Assembly (NCBI GenBank): GCA_003450555.1
Contig: DMFQ01000301.1
Coordinates: 1 to 15,274 of the forward strand
Reading direction: 5' to 3'
Length of the DNA stretch: 15,274 bases
Source of the DNA: Ktedonobacter sp.
GTDB taxonomy: Bacteria; Chloroflexota; Ktedonobacteria; Ktedonobacterales; Ktedonobacteraceae
The notes below the pieces were generated by a model. The model did not search any database. It was not told the origin of the DNA and worked only from the letters and a program-made list of their open reading frames with translations. Positions 7,891 to 14,208 of this stretch are shown here, in pieces. Every line of letters starts with the position of its first letter. Position 1 is the first letter of the stretch. Both the position numbers and the translations under genes were made by a program.

Positions 7891-7915
7891 CACCTATTCT
7901 TGTGAGTCGTAAGAT
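7887..7915 (+). promoter_or_regulatory. Promoter of the 161-aa hypothetical gene
   Basis: A consensus TTGACA at 7887-7892 is followed after 17 nt by TAAGAT at 7910-7915. The start of transcription would be near 7922, about 45 nt before the ATG at 7968. With the SprT-like promoter this makes the 263-bp gap (7705-7967) a true divergent control region. Confidence 0.6.
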
Positions 7916-7967
7916 GAGATTGGTCTTAACAAGTTCACCTTCTACCTCCCTTAAGGAGTTTTTGGGC

Positions 7968-8453
7968 ATGTCGTTTCAAATATGTATAAGAACAGAAAAG
8001 TCATTACAACAACTCACTTCTGAGATACGCACTATCTTCGCGCTCCCACCGTTTCGACAGGATTCTTTCGCTGGTGAACCGTATTGCCAGTTTGAGATGT
8101 TAGGAATGCTCATACTGATCCATCGCGCCGACGAGGAAGACCGCGACCCGGAGGTGATGCACTATCCCTACTGCTTTGACCTGCAAATGGCTTTTGCCGA
8201 TCACGAGCTAGATACGGATCATATGGAGTACACCTTACAACCGTATTATGCTCAATTGCTCAGTTTTCATCTTGGTCTGGATACCGCCTATCATGAGAAA
8301 CAGAAAGTCGAAAACAGGTGGCACATACGCTATCGCTTCTTTGGCAAAAATCCAAATTGGAATGAAGCTATTTTATATGGTGAAGCGGGATGGCAGCCAG
8401 CTATTATCGAAACTCCCCCCACGATATGGCGCACAATGCATCCCGTCTTTTAG
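7968..8453 (+). CDS. Hypothetical protein, 161 aa, not recognised
   Basis: I do not recognise a family. The protein looks soluble and globular: rich in aromatic and acidic residues, no signal peptide, no clear membrane span (only a short hydrophobic strand near 43-52), no nucleotide-binding or metal motif. Clusters such as HYPYCFDLQMAF, RWHIRYRFFG and NWNEAILYGEAGW suggest alternating beta-strands. I chose the ATG at 7968 because TTAAGGAG lies about 9 nt upstream and a good promoter precedes it. The frame stays open upstream to 7581, but that part runs antisense through the SprT-like gene and is unlikely to be translated. Cysteines are few (C6, C40, C69). It is divergent from the SprT-like gene and 170 bp before the MaoC gene. 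I infer a single-gene transcript, but no terminator is visible after it. Confidence 0.75.
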   Translation: MSFQICIRTEKSLQQLTSEIRTIFALPPFRQDSFAGEPYCQFEMLGMLILIHRADEEDRDPEVMHYPYCFDLQMAFADHELDTDHMEYTLQPYYAQLLSFHLGLDTAYHEKQKVENRWHIRYRFFGKNPNWNEAILYGEAGWQPAIIETPPTIWRTMHPVF

Positions 8454-8623
8454 TCCCTTGCGTAATAGCTGGTAAAAATGCTACAGTGAAAAGGTCATGC
8501 TATATCTCATCCTCCATTACATAAGCGAAACGTTGTAGGGGCGCATAATGACGCTCATCTGGAGACAGGGTCTGGCGCAATACTGGGCGCTGTGATCTTA
8601 CCCGAACTACATGGAGGCATCCC

Positions 8624-9082
8624 TTGAGTATTTTGAACACAGCAATCGGTGAAAAGCTTATTCCACTGGTGAAGCCGCCAATTATGCAGGAGCAGCTTCA
8701 ACGTTACGCTGAAGCATCTGGTGATTACAATCCCATCCATCTTGATGAAGAGGCTGCACATCGTGTAGGTCTGGATGGTGTCATCGCCCAGGGCATGCTC
8801 AGCATGGCTTTTCTCGGTCAATTCATCGACCTACACATCTCCGACACGCCTGAAGCATTTCTCACGCAACTGAAGGTCCGCTTTATCAACATGGTTCGCC
8901 TGGGAGATACCGTCACCTGTCATGGCGTTGTCAAAGCTCGTACCACCCCGAGGGAGGGATATGAGTCCATGGAAATTGAGTGCTGGGCACAAAACCAGAG
9001 AGGTGAGAAGGTCACTGCTGGTGAAGCCATGGTATCTATTCCCTTAAGACTCGGCAGGGCAGAAGAAGAGGTACAAGCATGA
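8624..9082 (+). CDS. MaoC-family (R)-specific enoyl-CoA hydratase-like protein
   Basis: This 152-residue single hot-dog-fold protein carries the hydratase-2 signature YAEASGDYNPIHLDEEAA, with the catalytic pair expected at D34 and H39, followed by GVIAQGMLSMAF. Family members hydrate trans-2-enoyl-CoA to (R)-3-hydroxyacyl-CoA or run the reverse dehydration, in fatty-acid, polyester or polyketide-like pathways. Translation probably starts at a TTG (8624-8626), because GGAGG lies 6 nt upstream and the hot-dog domain begins soon after. It ends in an ATGA overlap with the acyl ligase start, so the two are translationally coupled. It is the first gene of the cassette that ends in the R2lox-like gene. 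I see no convincing promoter in the 170 bp upstream. Substrate chain length cannot be told. Confidence 0.88.
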   Translation: MSILNTAIGEKLIPLVKPPIMQEQLQRYAEASGDYNPIHLDEEAAHRVGLDGVIAQGMLSMAFLGQFIDLHISDTPEAFLTQLKVRFINMVRLGDTVTCHGVVKARTTPREGYESMEIECWAQNQRGEKVTAGEAMVSIPLRLGRAEEEVQA

Positions 9083-10695
9083 CGGTTGAGAAACCCACGA
9101 TGAACGATCAGGACCTGCATGTGCTCTCCGATCTCTCCATCTACAACTGCGTTCGTTTCGGTCCTTACAAAGCGTTGATCTACGAAGATCAGCAAGATAT
9201 ACGCGAATATACCAACCTGGATATAGCCAGGGAAGCGGCACAACTGGCTAGCGGTCTACAGGCATTAGGAATTGAGAAAGGCGACCGCGTCATTGTCATG
9301 ATGCTGAACTGCCCAGAAGTCATCATTGCGTACCAGGCAATTGCGCGCGCGGGTGCGGTCATCATACCGGTAATGCCACTCCTCAAGGGGCCGGAAGTAC
9401 GTTATATTGCGGAGAATTCCGCCGCCAGGGCCGTGATTACCAGCGCTGTTCTCCTCCCTTTACTCAGCAGTGCTCCGGCCGATGTCCCTACTATGCAGCA
9501 CATTATTTCTACAGGGAAAACGGAGGTACAAAGTGCTGTGCCTGTTGGAGACAGCCCGCGCTCCTATACGCTGCACGCTTATAGCGATGTCGTAAAAAAA
9601 GGCGAAGCGGGCACTGAACATTTCCTCTCGCCTGAGAAAGGGGTGCTCTTGTCAGAAGATGATACTGCCGTCATCCTCTATACATCTGGTACCACCGGTC
9701 GTCCAAAGGGGGTTGTTCTCACCCATCGTAACCTCATCTCCAACGCGCTGAGTGGACGAGGGCCGGAACGTCAGACGCGGGATGAAGAGACCAACCTGGC
9801 TGTACTTCCCCTGGCTCACGCCTTTGGCATTATCGCCGCCAATGTCTTCTTCTTGCGTGGACTGACGATTATAGCACATCCTCGTTTTGATACTGCCGCG
9901 GTACTCTCCGCTATAGAACGCCACCGTATAGTCTCATTCGCCGGCGTCCCAGCCATGTTCGTCGCGTTGTTGTTCACACCAGATACTGAGAAATACGATA
10001 CCAGTAGTTTGCAGACGTGTGTCAGCGGTTCTGCTCCTCTGCCAGTAGCGATCTTACAGGGCTTCGAGCAGAAATTTGGCTGTCGCATCCTGGAGGGTTA
10101 CGGCCTCTCAGAGGCAAGCGCGGCTCTCACCGGCCACGCCATTGATATGGAGAGGAGAGCAGGTTCGGTCGGAAAAGCGTTGCCAAACGTAGAAGTGCTC
10201 GTCGTGGACGAAAACGATCAACCTGTACCTGCTGGCGAAGTGGGTGAGGTGATCGCGCGAGGCCCCAATGTCATGAAGGGCTATTACAACATGCCCGACG
10301 AGACAGAGGCCGCGATGAAGAACGGCTGGCTGCATACAGGCGATATGGGACGCTTTGACGAAGATGGTTATTTGTATATTGTCGAACGTAAGAAGGACCT
10401 GATCATTCGCGGGGGATTTAATATCTATCCGCGTGACGTGGAAGAAGTCCTCAGCAGGCATCCAGCAGTGGCCGAAGCGGCGGTGATTGGCGTTCCATCG
10501 GAGCGCATGGGTGAAGAAGTGAAAGCCTTTGTTGTTACGCGGGCCCCCGTTGAGGCGGAGACCCTCCTCGCTTACTGCCGCGAGTCGCTGGCGAACTATA
10601 AGACGCCAGGCGAGATTGAGTTTATCAGTGTGTTGCCACGCAATGCAGTGGGAAAGATCGACAAGAAAGAGCTAAGGAGACAACATGTCCATTGA
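9079..10695 (+). CDS. AMP-dependent acyl-CoA synthetase / fatty-acyl ligase (FadD-like)
   Basis: This ANL-superfamily enzyme activates a carboxylic acid with ATP to acyl-AMP and then normally to acyl-CoA. The 538 residues contain the phosphate loop YTSGTTGRPKG at 201-211, the second motif YGLSE at 341-345, HTGD with D422, the hinge region YIVERKKDLIIRGGFNIYPR at 433-452, and the C-terminal catalytic lysine in GKID (K526). Length and motifs fit medium- or long-chain fatty-acid CoA ligases rather than acetyl-CoA synthetase. No carrier domain is fused. The ATG overlaps the MaoC stop by 4 nt, and the end overlaps the R2lox-like start by 11 nt. All three products are therefore probably made together. 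The natural acid is unknown, but the R2lox neighbour suggests a long-chain fatty acid. Confidence 0.93.
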   Translation: MTVEKPTMNDQDLHVLSDLSIYNCVRFGPYKALIYEDQQDIREYTNLDIAREAAQLASGLQALGIEKGDRVIVMMLNCPEVIIAYQAIARAGAVIIPVMPLLKGPEVRYIAENSAARAVITSAVLLPLLSSAPADVPTMQHIISTGKTEVQSAVPVGDSPRSYTLHAYSDVVKKGEAGTEHFLSPEKGVLLSEDDTAVILYTSGTTGRPKGVVLTHRNLISNALSGRGPERQTRDEETNLAVLPLAHAFGIIAANVFFLRGLTIIAHPRFDTAAVLSAIERHRIVSFAGVPAMFVALLFTPDTEKYDTSSLQTCVSGSAPLPVAILQGFEQKFGCRILEGYGLSEASAALTGHAIDMERRAGSVGKALPNVEVLVVDENDQPVPAGEVGEVIARGPNVMKGYYNMPDETEAAMKNGWLHTGDMGRFDEDGYLYIVERKKDLIIRGGFNIYPRDVEEVLSRHPAVAEAAVIGVPSERMGEEVKAFVVTRAPVEAETLLAYCRESLANYKTPGEIEFISVLPRNAVGKIDKKELRRQHVH

Positions 10696-11629
10696 AATGC
10701 CCTTAGAAAATGCCTCACTGGCCCAGTTACAGCAGACCCCCATCGATAACGTGATAGACATTATTGATCAGGGGCTGGTCCATTTGCCTTCCTATAGGGA
10801 ACTTTTCTACCGCTGGGAGCGCCAGCAGTGGCGCGCGGAGGAGATTAATTTCTCTGCTGACCGCGCCCAATGGGAGCAGATGGGAGCAGAGGAACGCCAG
10901 GACCGCCTGTATGGACTATCGGCCTTCTTTAAGGGAGAAGCGTGCGTCACAGACACGTTAGGCCCATATATTAGCGCGATGCCCGACGAGGAGATGCGTA
11001 TCTTCCTGACCACGCAGTTGGCAGACGAGGCCCGGCATACGGTTTTCTTCGCTCGCTTTTTCAAAGAGGTGCTCGGCATAGATAAGACAAGGTTGGAGGA
11101 CACACTGACCGAGATACAGCAGTATATGAACAAGCAACTCCAGTATATCCTGATTGACTCACTTTCAGACGTCGCCGAACGTATTCGGCAGGAACCCACT
11201 AACCTTGCTCACCTGGTCGAAGGTGTAACACTCTACCATGTCATTGTCGAAGGGACAATGGCACTGGCAGGCCAGCGCGCCATCCTCGAATTCTACCGTC
11301 AGAATAATCTCTTCCCGGCATTTCGCGGCGGTTTCACCGCTGTCGCGCGCGATGAATCACGCCACGTTGTCTTTGGTGTGAAATTCCTGAGAGAAATGAT
11401 TCAGCGAGACGCAGTTCATGCCAGGATTGTGAAGGCGGCCATCGATAAATATGCGCCTGTTGCCCTCGCCGCGCTGACGCCGGAGGACGAATACATCCCG
11501 AACATCCTGGCGATGCAGGTGGACCCGTGGGTGTCACCGCGTTACGCGCTGGACTCGCTGCGCAAGAAAATCAAGGTGATTGGCCTGAGTTTGGAGTTGC
11601 CGGTGGTACCTTCACCGCCAGTGTTTTAA
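10685..11629 (+). CDS. R2-like ligand-binding oxidase (R2lox-like, ribonucleotide reductase R2 superfamily)
   Basis: This 314-residue ferritin-fold protein shows all six dimetal ligands: E85 (GEACVTD), E115 and H118 (DEARH), E189 (HVIVEG), E224 and H227 (DESRH). The radical tyrosine of class I R2, seven residues after the second ligand, is F122. V88 (ligand +3) and Y184 (ligand -5) match the residues that form the Val-Tyr ether cross-link of R2lox. R2lox proteins carry a Mn/Fe site and hold a long-chain fatty acid in crystal structures. They perform two-electron oxidation, and their physiological role is unsettled. Spacing between ligands 2 and 3 (74 residues) is longer than I recall for described R2lox (about 66), so it may be a divergent subgroup. 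AGGAG lies 5 nt before the ATG. No R1 subunit gene and no R1-docking tail are visible. Confidence 0.85.
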   Translation: MSIEMPLENASLAQLQQTPIDNVIDIIDQGLVHLPSYRELFYRWERQQWRAEEINFSADRAQWEQMGAEERQDRLYGLSAFFKGEACVTDTLGPYISAMPDEEMRIFLTTQLADEARHTVFFARFFKEVLGIDKTRLEDTLTEIQQYMNKQLQYILIDSLSDVAERIRQEPTNLAHLVEGVTLYHVIVEGTMALAGQRAILEFYRQNNLFPAFRGGFTAVARDESRHVVFGVKFLREMIQRDAVHARIVKAAIDKYAPVALAALTPEDEYIPNILAMQVDPWVSPRYALDSLRKKIKVIGLSLELPVVPSPPVF

Positions 11630-11645
11630 AGACGTTGAAAGGGTC

Positions 11646-11660
11646 AGGTCGATGTGACCT
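11646..11660. repeat. Small inverted repeat between the R2lox-like and RAM genes
   Basis: AGGTC (11646-11650) and GACCT (11656-11660) pair across 5 nt, just upstream of the RAM gene ribosome site. No T-run follows, so it probably does not end transcription. Confidence 0.3.
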
Positions 11661-11684
11661 CATGTGATCGATAAGGAGTATAGT

Positions 11685-11963
11685 ATGGTGTCCGCTGTCG
11701 TTCTCATCAATGTACAACGAGGGCAGGTCAATGAAACTGCCCAGAGCCTCTTAGAGATCGAAGGGGTGGCGGAGGTCTACTCAGTCACAGGAGAGTATGA
11801 CCTTGTAGCGCTTTTACGGCTGCAACGGTATGAAGACCTGTCAGAAGTGGTTACTACGCGCATGGTACAACTGCCAAACATCACCAACACCAACACCCTG
11901 ATGGCCTTTCAATGCTACTCGCGGGCCGACCTCCAACAGGCCTGGGATATCGGCGTCGAGTAG
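11685..11963 (+). CDS. Stand-alone Lrp/AsnC ligand-binding (RAM) domain protein
   Basis: The 92 residues form one RAM domain of the Lrp/AsnC family: a first strand VSAVVLINVQRGQ, a helix, then GVAEVYSVTGEYDLVALLRLQ, and the C-terminal pair of helices around NITNTNTLMAF. No helix-turn-helix is present, so it should not bind DNA itself. Such proteins oligomerise and bind amino acids or other small effectors. I chose the ATG at 11685 because AAGGAG lies 6 nt upstream. An in-frame GTG at 11664 lacks a ribosome site. It starts 55 bp after the R2lox-like gene and may share its transcript. gcvH follows after a repeat element. Its stop codon TAG is also the first three bases of that repeat. The effector is unknown. 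Glycine or a related amino acid is only a contextual guess. Confidence 0.85.
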   Translation: MVSAVVLINVQRGQVNETAQSLLEIEGVAEVYSVTGEYDLVALLRLQRYEDLSEVVTTRMVQLPNITNTNTLMAFQCYSRADLQQAWDIGVE

Positions 11964-12057
11964 GGGCGCCATTGATTGGCGCCCGCGGGCCGGATCGACT
12001 GGCGACTGGATGTAGGGAGCGACTGGCCACCCGGGCGCCAGTGAATGGCGCCCCTAC
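11960..12057. repeat. REP/BIME-like double hairpin element
   Basis: Two near-identical arms (11960-11984 and 12033-12057, 25 bp with three mismatches at the centre) lie in inverted orientation around 48 bp. Each arm is itself a hairpin: GGGCGCCA, a 5-nt loop, TGGCGCCC. The spacer has CGACTGG three times (11996, 12003, 12020). The outer edges read GTAGGGG and CCCCTAC. The layout resembles the paired palindromes of bacterial interspersed mosaic elements. There is no T-run, so it need not be a terminator, though it may stall or protect RNA ends. It accounts for half of the 194-bp gap before gcvH. Confidence 0.7.
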
Positions 12058-12115
12058 GTCCATGCGGTCAAGCAATATGCCGCGTGTCATTTTTACTGTT
12101 CATCATTGTGTCCAG

Positions 12116-12149
12116 GGATGGTCTCTCGACCGTCCAGAAGAAGGGAGAC
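12116..12149 (+). promoter_or_regulatory. Leader hairpin with a loop complementary to the gcvH ribosome site
   Basis: GGATGGTC (12116-12123) and GACCGTCC (12128-12135) form an 8-bp stem (one G-T wobble) with loop TCTC. GTCTCTC (12121-12127), which is the loop plus part of the stem, is also complementary to GGGAGAC (12143-12149), the gcvH Shine-Dalgarno region. Either the stem forms, or its 5' side pairs with the ribosome site, or the loop makes a pseudoknot with GAGA. I see no glycine riboswitch consensus here. Confidence 0.4.
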
Positions 12150-12157
12150 ACTCAACC

Positions 12158-12553
12158 ATGGCGAATCTCAATCATCCTGCCAACCTCAAATACACCAAAT
12201 CTGACGAGTGGGTACGCGTAGAGGGAGACCAGGCAACCATTGGTATAACTGACTATGCCCAGGATCAGCTCGGCGACATTGTCTATATTGAATTGCCCTG
12301 GGATGGTTCGCACAGTGTTTCACATGAAACAAAGTTTGGCGACATCGAATCAGTCAAAGCGACCTCTGAACTTGTTTCTCCTATCAGCGGCGATGTGGTG
12401 AAGGTCAATGGAGCATTAAAGGACACGCCGGAACTGATCAATGATGCCCCATATGAGGATGGGTGGATGCTCGTTGTAAAACTAACCAAACCCGAGGAGC
12501 TTACTAGCCTGCTGAGCGCGGAAGAATACCAGAAGCATCTTCAGGGTCGTTAG
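12158..12553 (+). CDS. gcvH: Glycine cleavage system H protein
   Basis: GcvH is the small carrier protein that holds the aminomethyl group on a lipoyl-lysine while it moves between the P, T and L proteins. The 131 residues are full length. They contain the start block KYTKSDEWVRVEGDQATIGITDYAQ and the lipoylation motif GDIESVKATSEL, with the modified lysine expected at K67. The end reads EDGWMLVVKL and LLSAEEYQKHL, as in the family. The ATG at 12158 has GGGAG 10 nt upstream, in a leader that may fold over it. The frame is open further upstream but enters the repeat element, so that part is not coding. It is followed, after 302 bp, by gcvPA. gcvT, normally nearby, is not in the window. Confidence 0.96.
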   Translation: MANLNHPANLKYTKSDEWVRVEGDQATIGITDYAQDQLGDIVYIELPWDGSHSVSHETKFGDIESVKATSELVSPISGDVVKVNGALKDTPELINDAPYEDGWMLVVKLTKPEELTSLLSAEEYQKHLQGR

Positions 12554-12597
12554 AGCGTGAGGAAGTCTGCATCACCATGGATCCACATGCATACATA

Positions 12598-12628
12598 TTG
12601 GATGCCTGACGCCTGAGCGTGATACAAT
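12598..12628 (+). promoter_or_regulatory. Possible extended -10 promoter for gcvPA-gcvPB
   Basis: TGATACAAT at 12620-12628 is an extended -10 element (TG-n-TACAAT). The nearest -35-like box is TTGGAT at 12598-12603, with a long 19-nt spacing. A short TGATA/TATCA inverted repeat surrounds it. The leader to gcvPA would be about 220 nt. Confidence 0.35.
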
Positions 12629-12701
12629 ACACTATATCATTATTGAGCATCTTTGCCTGGTACCCAGAGTGTGACAGGATGGGTTTTCCAAACTGGACCT
12701 C

Positions 12702-12775
12702 AAGGGGCACTCTTCCCTGACGGCATGACGCCCCAGAAACAAACGGGTCAGGCGTCCACGGGAAGAGTGCCCCTT
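12702..12775. repeat. 74-bp inverted-repeat element with perfect 16-bp arms
   Basis: The arms 12702-12717 (AAGGGGCACTCTTCCC) and 12760-12775 are perfectly complementary. The 42-nt interior can form a second stem (GACGCC 12727-12732 with GGCGTC 12751-12756) or a competing one (CCTGAC 12716-12721 with GTCAGG 12747-12752). There is no T-run on either side. It could be an attenuator, an RNA stability element or a dispersed palindromic repeat. Confidence 0.55.
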
Positions 12776-12855
12776 CTAGATACCCTGAACATTGCTCAAA
12801 GGAATTATTCATTTCGGTCATGTCTCTTTTAATTCGCTCAATGGAGAGTTAACGC

Positions 12856-14208
12856 ATGAGCTATATACCTAATACCCGCGAAGACCAGGAAACAATGCTG
12901 GCGCGCCTGGACCTTCCTTCGCTAGAGGCGTTGCTAGCGCCTGTACCAGAAAATGTACGCCTGCGACGCCCGCTTGAACTTCCGCCTGCCCTCTCTGAGC
13001 CAGATCTCAAAAGGGTGCTCTACGCCATGGCGGCGAAAAATAAAAACCTGGACACCGTTATCTCGTTTCTGGGCGCTGGCACCTACGACCACGCTATACC
13101 AAGCGTGGTGCCGCACCTGCAGCGCCGCTCCGAATTTCTCACTTCGTACACGCCCTACCAGCCCGAAGTCAGCCAGGGCATGCTACAGGCTATCTACGAG
13201 TTCCAAACCATGGTCTGCCAGATTACGGGATTGGATATCGCCAATGCCTCGCTCTACGATGGCGCAACTGCCATGGTTGAAGCTGTGTTACTGGCGGTTG
13301 GCCCCGGCGGACGAGGAGAAGTGGTCATTTCACAGGGCGTTGATCCACAGTACCGTCGCGTGCTCCACACCTACGCTCACGCGCGCGGCTTCCAGGTCAA
13401 AGAGGTACCCATACGCGATGGCCTCACCTCGATCGAGGATTTGAACGAAGCTGTCAGCGCGACGACTTCGGCTGTCGTCATACAACAGCCTAATTTCTTT
13501 GGCTCCATTGAAGATATGAGCGCCATTGAACCAATCGCCCACAAAGGCAAGGCGGTCTTCATCGCTACGATCACCGAGCCTGCTTCACTGGGTATCCTGG
13601 CCTCACCGGGTGAATACGGCGCCGATATCGCTGTAGGCGAAATGATGAGCTTCGGCAATACTATGAGTTTCGGCGGCCCGGCGTTAGGCTTCATGGCCTC
13701 CAAACAGAAATATATGCGCCTGCTGCCAGGGAGACTGGTTGGGCAGACCATCGAGGAAGGCGGAGAGAAACAAACAGGCTATGTTTTAACATTGCAGACG
13801 CGCGAACAGCACATCCGCCGCGAGCGTGCTACCTCCAACATTTGTACCAACCAGTCGTTGCTGGCCGTTGGCGCAACCATCTATATGGCTGCCATTGGCA
13901 AACAGGGATTCCGCGAACTTGGCGAACTTTGTCTGCAAAAAGCGCACTACGCGTACCGCCAGATCACCGCGCTACCGGGCTTTGAGCCAGTATTCAGTGC
14001 TCCGTTCTTTGATGAGTTTGTGATCAAATCGCCTGTTCCAACACAGAAACTCCAGCAGCATTTCGAGCAGGCCGATATCATTGGTGGATATGACCTGGGA
14101 CTGGACTATCCGGACATGGAGAATTGCCTGCTCTTCTGTGTGACAGAGACGCGCGCAAAAGAAGAGATAGATCGCCTGGTAGCAGTGTTAAAGGAGGTAC
14201 AGGCATGA
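12856..14208 (+). CDS. gcvPA: Glycine dehydrogenase (decarboxylating) P-protein, subunit 1
   Basis: The two-subunit P-protein decarboxylates glycine with pyridoxal phosphate and loads the aminomethyl group on GcvH-lipoate. This 450-residue protein is the N-terminal half-protein and is of usual length. Family marks are [13 protein letters not shown] at the start, [19 protein letters not shown] near 71-89, [12 protein letters not shown] near 96-107, and the catalytically silent AAT-fold region with IGEMMSFG-like sequence and GRLVGQT. As expected for subunit 1, it lacks the cofactor lysine, which is on subunit 2. It ends in an ATGA overlap with gcvPB, so the two subunits are translationally coupled. 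The GGAGA site lies 8 nt before the ATG. Split P-proteins occur in many Gram-positives, Archaea, Thermus and Chloroflexota. Confidence 0.96.

Follow-up and report, generated by a model that had tools for sequence, protein, structure and literature searches.

An overlapping MaoC hydratase, acyl-CoA ligase and R2lox-like oxidase operon of Ktedonobacteria with a possible role in fatty-acid oxidation

Three overlapping genes of a soil bacterium, Ktedonobacter sp., encode a MaoC-type hydratase, an acyl-coenzyme A (acyl-CoA) ligase and an R2lox-like oxidase, and together they constitute a real, conserved operon. On sequence grounds, the oxidase is not a canonical R2lox and belongs to a sister clade. 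The cassette was analyzed within a stretch of 15,274 nucleotides (contig DMFQ01000301.1 of assembly GCA_003450555.1), the whole of which is referred to here as the window. The three open reading frames (ORFs) were confirmed on the forward strand, and a gene for a RAM-only protein lies downstream of them:

8624-9082, + strand: MaoC-type (R)-hydratase/dehydratase, 152 aa, TTG start; PF01575
9079-10695, + strand: ANL superfamily fatty acyl-CoA ligase, 538 aa; PF00501, PF13193, NF004837
10685-11629, + strand: R2lox-like dinuclear-metal oxidase, 314 aa; PF00268 (Ribonuc_red_sm)
11685-11963, + strand: RAM-only (Lrp/AsnC ligand-binding domain) protein; PF01037, 51.3 bits

An earlier note on this DNA had described the MaoC stop as overlapping the ligase start through an ATGA and the ligase end as running 11 nt into the oxidase gene. 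Both overlaps are present, the first of 4 nt at 9079-9082 and the second at 10685-10695. Shine-Dalgarno-like sequences were found ahead of the MaoC start (GGAGG, 8613-8617) and ahead of the oxidase start (AAGGAG), and together with the overlaps they make translational coupling of these genes plausible. The RAM gene has a probable ATG start at 11685, again behind AAGGAG, while its ORF as listed begins at a GTG at 11664; a DNA-binding domain was not found in its product. A scan of positions 7900-12300 gave one promoter-like site, as against 3.7 in shuffled sequences, and five terminator-like sites, as against 3.2.

The hydratase matches PF01575 at 83.9 bits (cut-off 27), and its GDxNPIH motif at residues 33-39, which we take to be the catalytic Asp/His motif of MaoC-type hydratases, is kept in all 12 cassette sequences aligned. 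The ligase scores 314 bits against the AMP-binding model PF00501 (cut-off 29.9) and 494.2 bits against the long-chain acyl-CoA ligase model NF004837 (cut-off 476). Its ANL motifs YTSGTTGxPKG, EGYGL(S/T)EA, TGD and (V/I)GKIDKKEL are kept in 15/15 cassette sequences aligned. The oxidase matches PF00268 at 64.8 bits (cut-off 33.6). The 4.36-Mb genome that holds the window contains 14 AMP-binding and 4 MaoC matches above cut-off.

The survey of conservation covered 47 genomes of the class Ktedonobacteria, 40 of which hold oxidase relatives of some kind (G numbers below denote genomes and L numbers loci). Window-type oxidases, at 67-100% identity, occur as 16 copies in 15 of the 47 genomes and in seven genera; their neighborhoods were examined as ten fetched regions, four genome-collection loci (G042, G038, G041, G039) and the window itself. 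A ligase gene lies directly upstream of a window-type copy in every one of the 15 genomes, the sixteenth copy being a second one in G020 that sits in a biosynthetic-type cluster and has no adjacent free-standing ligase. Of the 14 genomes evaluable for MaoC (the contig of G042 stops at the ligase), 12 have it next to the ligase-oxidase pair, and G031 and G036 do not. For a RAM gene behind the oxidase the count is 13 of 14, G031 being the one without it (in G046 the contig stops inside the oxidase). The overlap of ligase and oxidase was read as 11 nt with an in-frame ATG in 8/15 genomes and as 17-20 nt in the six Thermogemmatispora genomes, L042 being left aside. Since the arrangement is conserved in other genera, it is more than chance. 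The earlier note had treated the three genes as a unit and had named a lack of linkage in related genomes as one finding that would refute its proposal; the unit is upheld by these counts, and linkage was found across the seven genera.

The oxidase carries the six metal ligands E85, E115, H118, E189, E224 and H227 (four Glu, two His), a set that is complete in 64 of the 65 clade members compared, the remaining one having Asp for E85. The ether cross-link pair is V88 and Y184, found in 64/65 and 65/65 members, respectively. Alone in the clade, the oxidase of L076:7941-8876 has Asp in place of the first Glu ligand and Met where the cross-link Val would stand. The alanine that opens the fatty-acid tunnel of R2lox, where R2 proteins have Phe (PMC6399176, as far as its accessible text goes), corresponds to A171 of the Geobacillus kaustophilus protein (GkR2lox) and to A193 here; it is kept in 63/65 members, and all three sequences of a third, R2-like group of the tree have Phe. 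The cavity tyrosine Y175 of GkR2lox, present in all 19 canonical sequences of the compared set, is Q197 in the window oxidase, and the clade has Gln in 64 members and Met in one. These counts were taken over the 87 sequences of a quick tree, which omits same-locus duplicates and 22 near-redundant loci.

In a more careful tree of 48 sequences, from which the long-branched L153, L126, L125 and L074 and further near relatives were left out, the window oxidase and 33 relatives form a group of their own (support 100/96), while GkR2lox, 6qrz and 10 Ktedonobacteria paralogues group together (99/90). The oxidase also fails to reach the cut-off of any of the five NCBIfam R2lox models, the best score being 132.9 bits against a required 194. 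Compared with GkR2loxI (PDB 4hr0), it is about 24% identical, lies in a separate clade in which N163 is replaced by His and Y175 by Gln (H185 and Q197 are the marks of the sister clade), and is placed in ligase/MaoC operons. With the R2 subunit of class I ribonucleotide reductase it shares the superfamily fold, the metal ligands and the Pfam family; it differs in having Ala rather than Phe at the tunnel position, and its predicted fold is closer to R2lox, with a lower structural score against class I R2. No R1 gene was noticed among the window ORFs, although no family search for R1 was made. The identification of the oxidase as R2lox in the earlier note is thus partly sustained: ligands, cross-link pair and tunnel alanine agree with it, whereas the scores below all five models, the separate clade and the missing Y175 set the protein apart from canonical R2lox.

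Linkage to acyl-CoA enzymes recurs in other branches of the clade. In the genome that holds the window, another oxidase gene of this clade, its product 45% identical, closes a row of genes for a ligase, an acyl-CoA dehydrogenase, a thiolase and a FadN-type protein. Five Thermogemmatispora loci keep the same beta-oxidation order with a MaoC-like protein in addition, and after the window type it is the oxidases of this operon that come closest within Ktedonobacteria. G001 has genes for a FabG-type reductase, the ligase, the oxidase, the RAM protein and a thiamine-dependent lyase, in that order. A further branch has a C-terminal extension with an SCP2 lipid-carrier domain in six of its seven members in the quick tree, with oxidases of 425-456 aa:

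L049:7900-9270: oxidase with SCP2 domain
L050:693-2009: oxidase with SCP2 domain
L051:7805-9112: oxidase with SCP2 domain
L128:7950-9275: oxidase with SCP2 domain
L129:4452-5741: oxidase with SCP2 domain
L131:7986-9263: oxidase with SCP2 domain

The seventh member, L134 (428 aa), has the extension without an SCP2 match. In two of the seven, L129 and L134 from Actinomycetota, a ligase gene lies immediately upstream on the same strand. Among the best 80 of 245 oxidase relatives across the collection, many of them on short contigs, a same-strand ligase was found at 20 loci, 17 of which are in Ktedonobacteria; the 20 comprise 12 loci of cassette type, five of beta-oxidation type, two of the SCP2 branch and one from Acidobacteria with the ligase about 4 kb downstream. 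Ligase linkage as a trait of the whole oxidase clade was rejected on this count of 20/80. The recurrent linkage that the earlier note had named as support is therefore seen in the cassette, the beta-oxidation operon and the two Actinomycetota ligase loci, that is, in some branches only.

Canonical R2lox paralogues of the class served as a control. Twenty of 30 lower-scoring places were fetched, of which 17 proved canonical in the tree and three (L152-L154) fell in the third, R2-like group, and ligase and MaoC genes were sought by BLAST with reference sequences. None of the 17 canonical paralogues had a same-strand ligase or MaoC gene within 5 kb, the flanks of L139 and L142 being short. One had a 28%-identical ligase at 5.3 kb, and two had an opposite-strand acyl-CoA dehydrogenase within 2 kb. 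Among the 22 copies of the sister clade taken for comparison the ligase link stands at 22/22, against 0/17 among canonical paralogues, a contrast for which Fisher values ignore relatedness; the 22 exclude two biosynthetic-cluster paralogues and the contig-truncated beta-oxidation loci of G030 and G040. Within the class, linkage therefore belongs to particular branches of the sister clade.

Association lends the fatty-acid link of the cassette good support. Long-chain fatty acids are bound by R2lox, which oxidizes a valine of its own by two electrons and has been proposed to be a desaturase (PMC4118035, PMC6399176, both from their accessible parts). Because the ligase makes acyl-CoA, the hydratase acts on enoyl-CoA and R2lox binds fatty acids, we tentatively read the cassette as a small acyl-CoA oxidation module in which an O2-dependent fatty acyl(-CoA) oxidase would work with the ligase and the hydratase, and we place this reading just short of an even chance. 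The substrate itself is probably an acyl-CoA or a free fatty acid. The simplest order would be activation, O2-dependent oxidation and hydration. The ligase would convert a fatty acid to its acyl-CoA; the oxidase would use O2 and its dinuclear metal site, presumably at the head of a hydrophobic channel, for a two-electron oxidation of the acyl chain, either a desaturation or a hydroxylation near the carboxyl end; and MaoC would hydrate or dehydrate the product as an enoyl- or hydroxyacyl-CoA. The channel, the metal and the electron donor are inferred, as are the kind of oxidation, its place on the chain and the order of the steps. Desaturation followed by hydration is a conceivable route that we regard as doubtful. 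The RAM-only protein may act as a sensor of some small ligand.

Several observations weigh against this proposal. No electron-transfer partner was seen in the cassette, and Y175, suggested by R2lox workers for substrate oxidation, is Gln here; if that residue matters for substrate oxidation by R2lox, the Gln clade must work differently. The genome has 13 acyl-CoA dehydrogenase N-domain matches, so a further acyl-CoA oxidant is not obviously needed. MaoC is missing beside the pair in the two genomes named above, and the second G020 copy (69% identical) and a copy in G028 (57%) sit in biosynthetic-type clusters, neither with an adjacent free-standing ligase. Outside Ktedonobacteria, loci L074-L134 had a same-strand ligase in 3/61 cases and a MaoC hit in none of the 61. 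Fatty-acid linkage also does not set the clade apart everywhere, because canonical GkR2loxI lies in a Geobacillus kaustophilus beta-oxidation cluster with a ligase, enoyl-CoA hydratases and an acyl-CoA dehydrogenase, according to the available portion of PMC10867098.

That same cluster suggests another role, an alkane or fatty-alcohol hydroxylase as claimed for GkR2loxI, whose acid products would then pass to the ligase. The available portion of PMC10867098 reports that crude recombinant GkR2loxI lowered the amounts of alkanes, from which an alkane monooxygenase was claimed, but also that a double mutant in the metal ligands was only slightly less active. The Geobacillus oxidase is canonical and its cluster includes alcohol and aldehyde dehydrogenases, and an overlapping MaoC-ligase-oxidase unit is not described in the portion available. 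Alcohol and aldehyde dehydrogenases are absent among the cassette genes, and the window oxidase is in a different clade and does not have Y175; we consider this role very improbable here. The same low probability is given to a conserved neighborhood with no shared pathway. Genes for housekeeping proteins such as SecA and SmpB are found close to the oxidase in other branches, so a location can stay conserved without a pathway tie; against this, the overlapping ORFs are kept across genera, and ligase or beta-oxidation partners occur in separate branches and not at the canonical R2lox paralogues examined. A biosynthetic role, in which the oxidase would modify an acyl chain destined for a lipid or secondary metabolite and the ligase and MaoC would supply or shape that chain, is unlikely, if less so than either of these. 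In its favor, two paralogues, 68% and 57% identical (L041:7345-16030, L043:1-2287), are flanked by genes for a type II thioesterase and an SbnA-like protein, with ABC transporter genes close by; L041 continues with an SbnB-like gene and a 1558-aa condensation/AMP-binding/carrier/reductase protein of the nonribosomal peptide synthetase type, the SbnA- and SbnB-like genes both being under their NCBIfam cut-offs. The cassette itself, however, has no carrier protein, synthase or transporter, and the next closest clade in Ktedonobacteria is in the beta-oxidation operon. An abundant hydroxylated membrane fatty acid, C16:1 2-OH, was also ruled out as the general product. This acid is present in Ktedonobacter racemifer as well as in Dictyobacter aurantiacus, where it makes up 27.92% (PMC12453558); the genome matching the latter, G024, is without this oxidase type, and the cassette as a general maker of the acid was rejected.

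Alpha-oxidation would give the oxidase a different position of attack. The ligase would make acyl-CoA, the oxidase would hydroxylate carbon 2, and a thiamine-dependent 2-hydroxyacyl-CoA lyase would release formyl-CoA. Such a route would be the bacterial parallel to alpha-oxidation in peroxisomes, an R2lox-like protein standing in for phytanoyl-CoA hydroxylase. Candidate lyase genes lie near the cassette in several genomes, of which the L034 copy was scanned:

L034:9522-11192: thiamine-dependent lyase near cassette
L044:9640-11355: thiamine-dependent lyase near cassette
L036:101-1747: thiamine-dependent lyase near cassette

In G020 the lyase and RAM ORFs as listed share 4 nt, making MaoC, ligase, oxidase, RAM protein and lyase one run; G001 also has the lyase next, and in G036 it is found downstream on the same strand, about 6.5 kb from the oxidase. 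Among solved structures the lyase comes nearest to oxalyl-CoA decarboxylases, benzaldehyde lyases and 2-hydroxyacyl-CoA lyases (300 to 234 bits), as against 198 bits or less for acetolactate synthases, but its best curated match is named acetolactate synthase (NF004516, 654.7 bits, cut-off 587). Of the family f1 genomes, 12 of the 15 that carry the cassette oxidase have a lyase orthologue, as against 1 of the 14 that do not carry it, counts that are not independent of descent; the lyase also occurs in f4 genomes that have no window-type oxidase. No orthologue was found in the genome that holds the window (84% complete), nor in G045 or G021, and the lyase was rejected as a fixed cassette member because it is missing from the first of these. 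MaoC, moreover, would have no evident step. Alpha-oxidation is distinctly unlikely; in genomes that have the lyase, a version of the module that works in this way is possible.

The structures of R2lox proteins have been solved and their metal chemistry is well studied. Their physiological function was described as not yet identified by PMC6399176, in its accessible text, and the only activity claim at hand rests on crude extract (PMC10867098, likewise in part). The cassette offers a concrete way to learn the function of this poorly understood enzyme group, as the ligase/hydratase operon, the beta-oxidation paralogue and the SCP2 fusion name a substrate class and supply partners for a reconstituted assay. 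Linkage of canonical R2lox to beta-oxidation genes is already known from Geobacillus (PMC10867098, from the available portion); what is new is a sister-clade variant of R2lox in a conserved operon, and the reaction hypothesis is directly testable. Searches of open-access literature, which did not extend to subscription papers on R2lox phylogeny, turned up no paper on the sister clade, the overlapping operon or the SCP2 fusion. A bolder proposal, which we regard as unlikely, would make the Gln clade a new class of acyl-CoA oxidases that depend on O2 and have Mn/Fe or Fe/Fe at the metal site, and that in Ktedonobacteria would replace or supplement the flavin acyl-CoA dehydrogenase or phytanoyl-CoA hydroxylase; the cassette, joined in some genera by the 2-hydroxyacyl-CoA-lyase-like enzyme, would then be a previously unknown bacterial route of fatty-acid oxidation.

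The conserved neighbor that occurs most often beside the oxidase in Thermoleophilia has an MBL fold; the single member scanned matches PF13483. RAM and lyase genes were seen near the oxidase in some of these genomes, and they were not used as proof because an opposite-strand gene, of a family found in 22 loci, often lies downstream of the oxidase. In the Actinomycetota loci listed below a RAM ORF (37-47% identical) lies upstream of the oxidase on the same strand, whereas in Ktedonobacteria it lies downstream:

L078, L081, L083, L091, L092, L093, L095, L099, L100, L104: Actinomycetota loci with upstream RAM ORF

On the other side of the cassette in the window is the gene of a small protein:

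7968-8453, + strand: 161-aa protein, no Pfam match, upstream neighbor of the cassette in several related genomes

It has 374 homologues at E 0.001 or better, and its predicted model is confident (pLDDT 92.7) and gave no Foldseek match at E 0.001 or better. In G031 and G036 the gene is separated from the ligase and oxidase genes, and a functional tie to the cassette is uncertain. After the cassette, window positions 12158-14208 (+ strand) hold genes for the glycine cleavage H protein (PF01597) and P protein (PF02347), and P-protein-like genes also lie near the cassette in G021.

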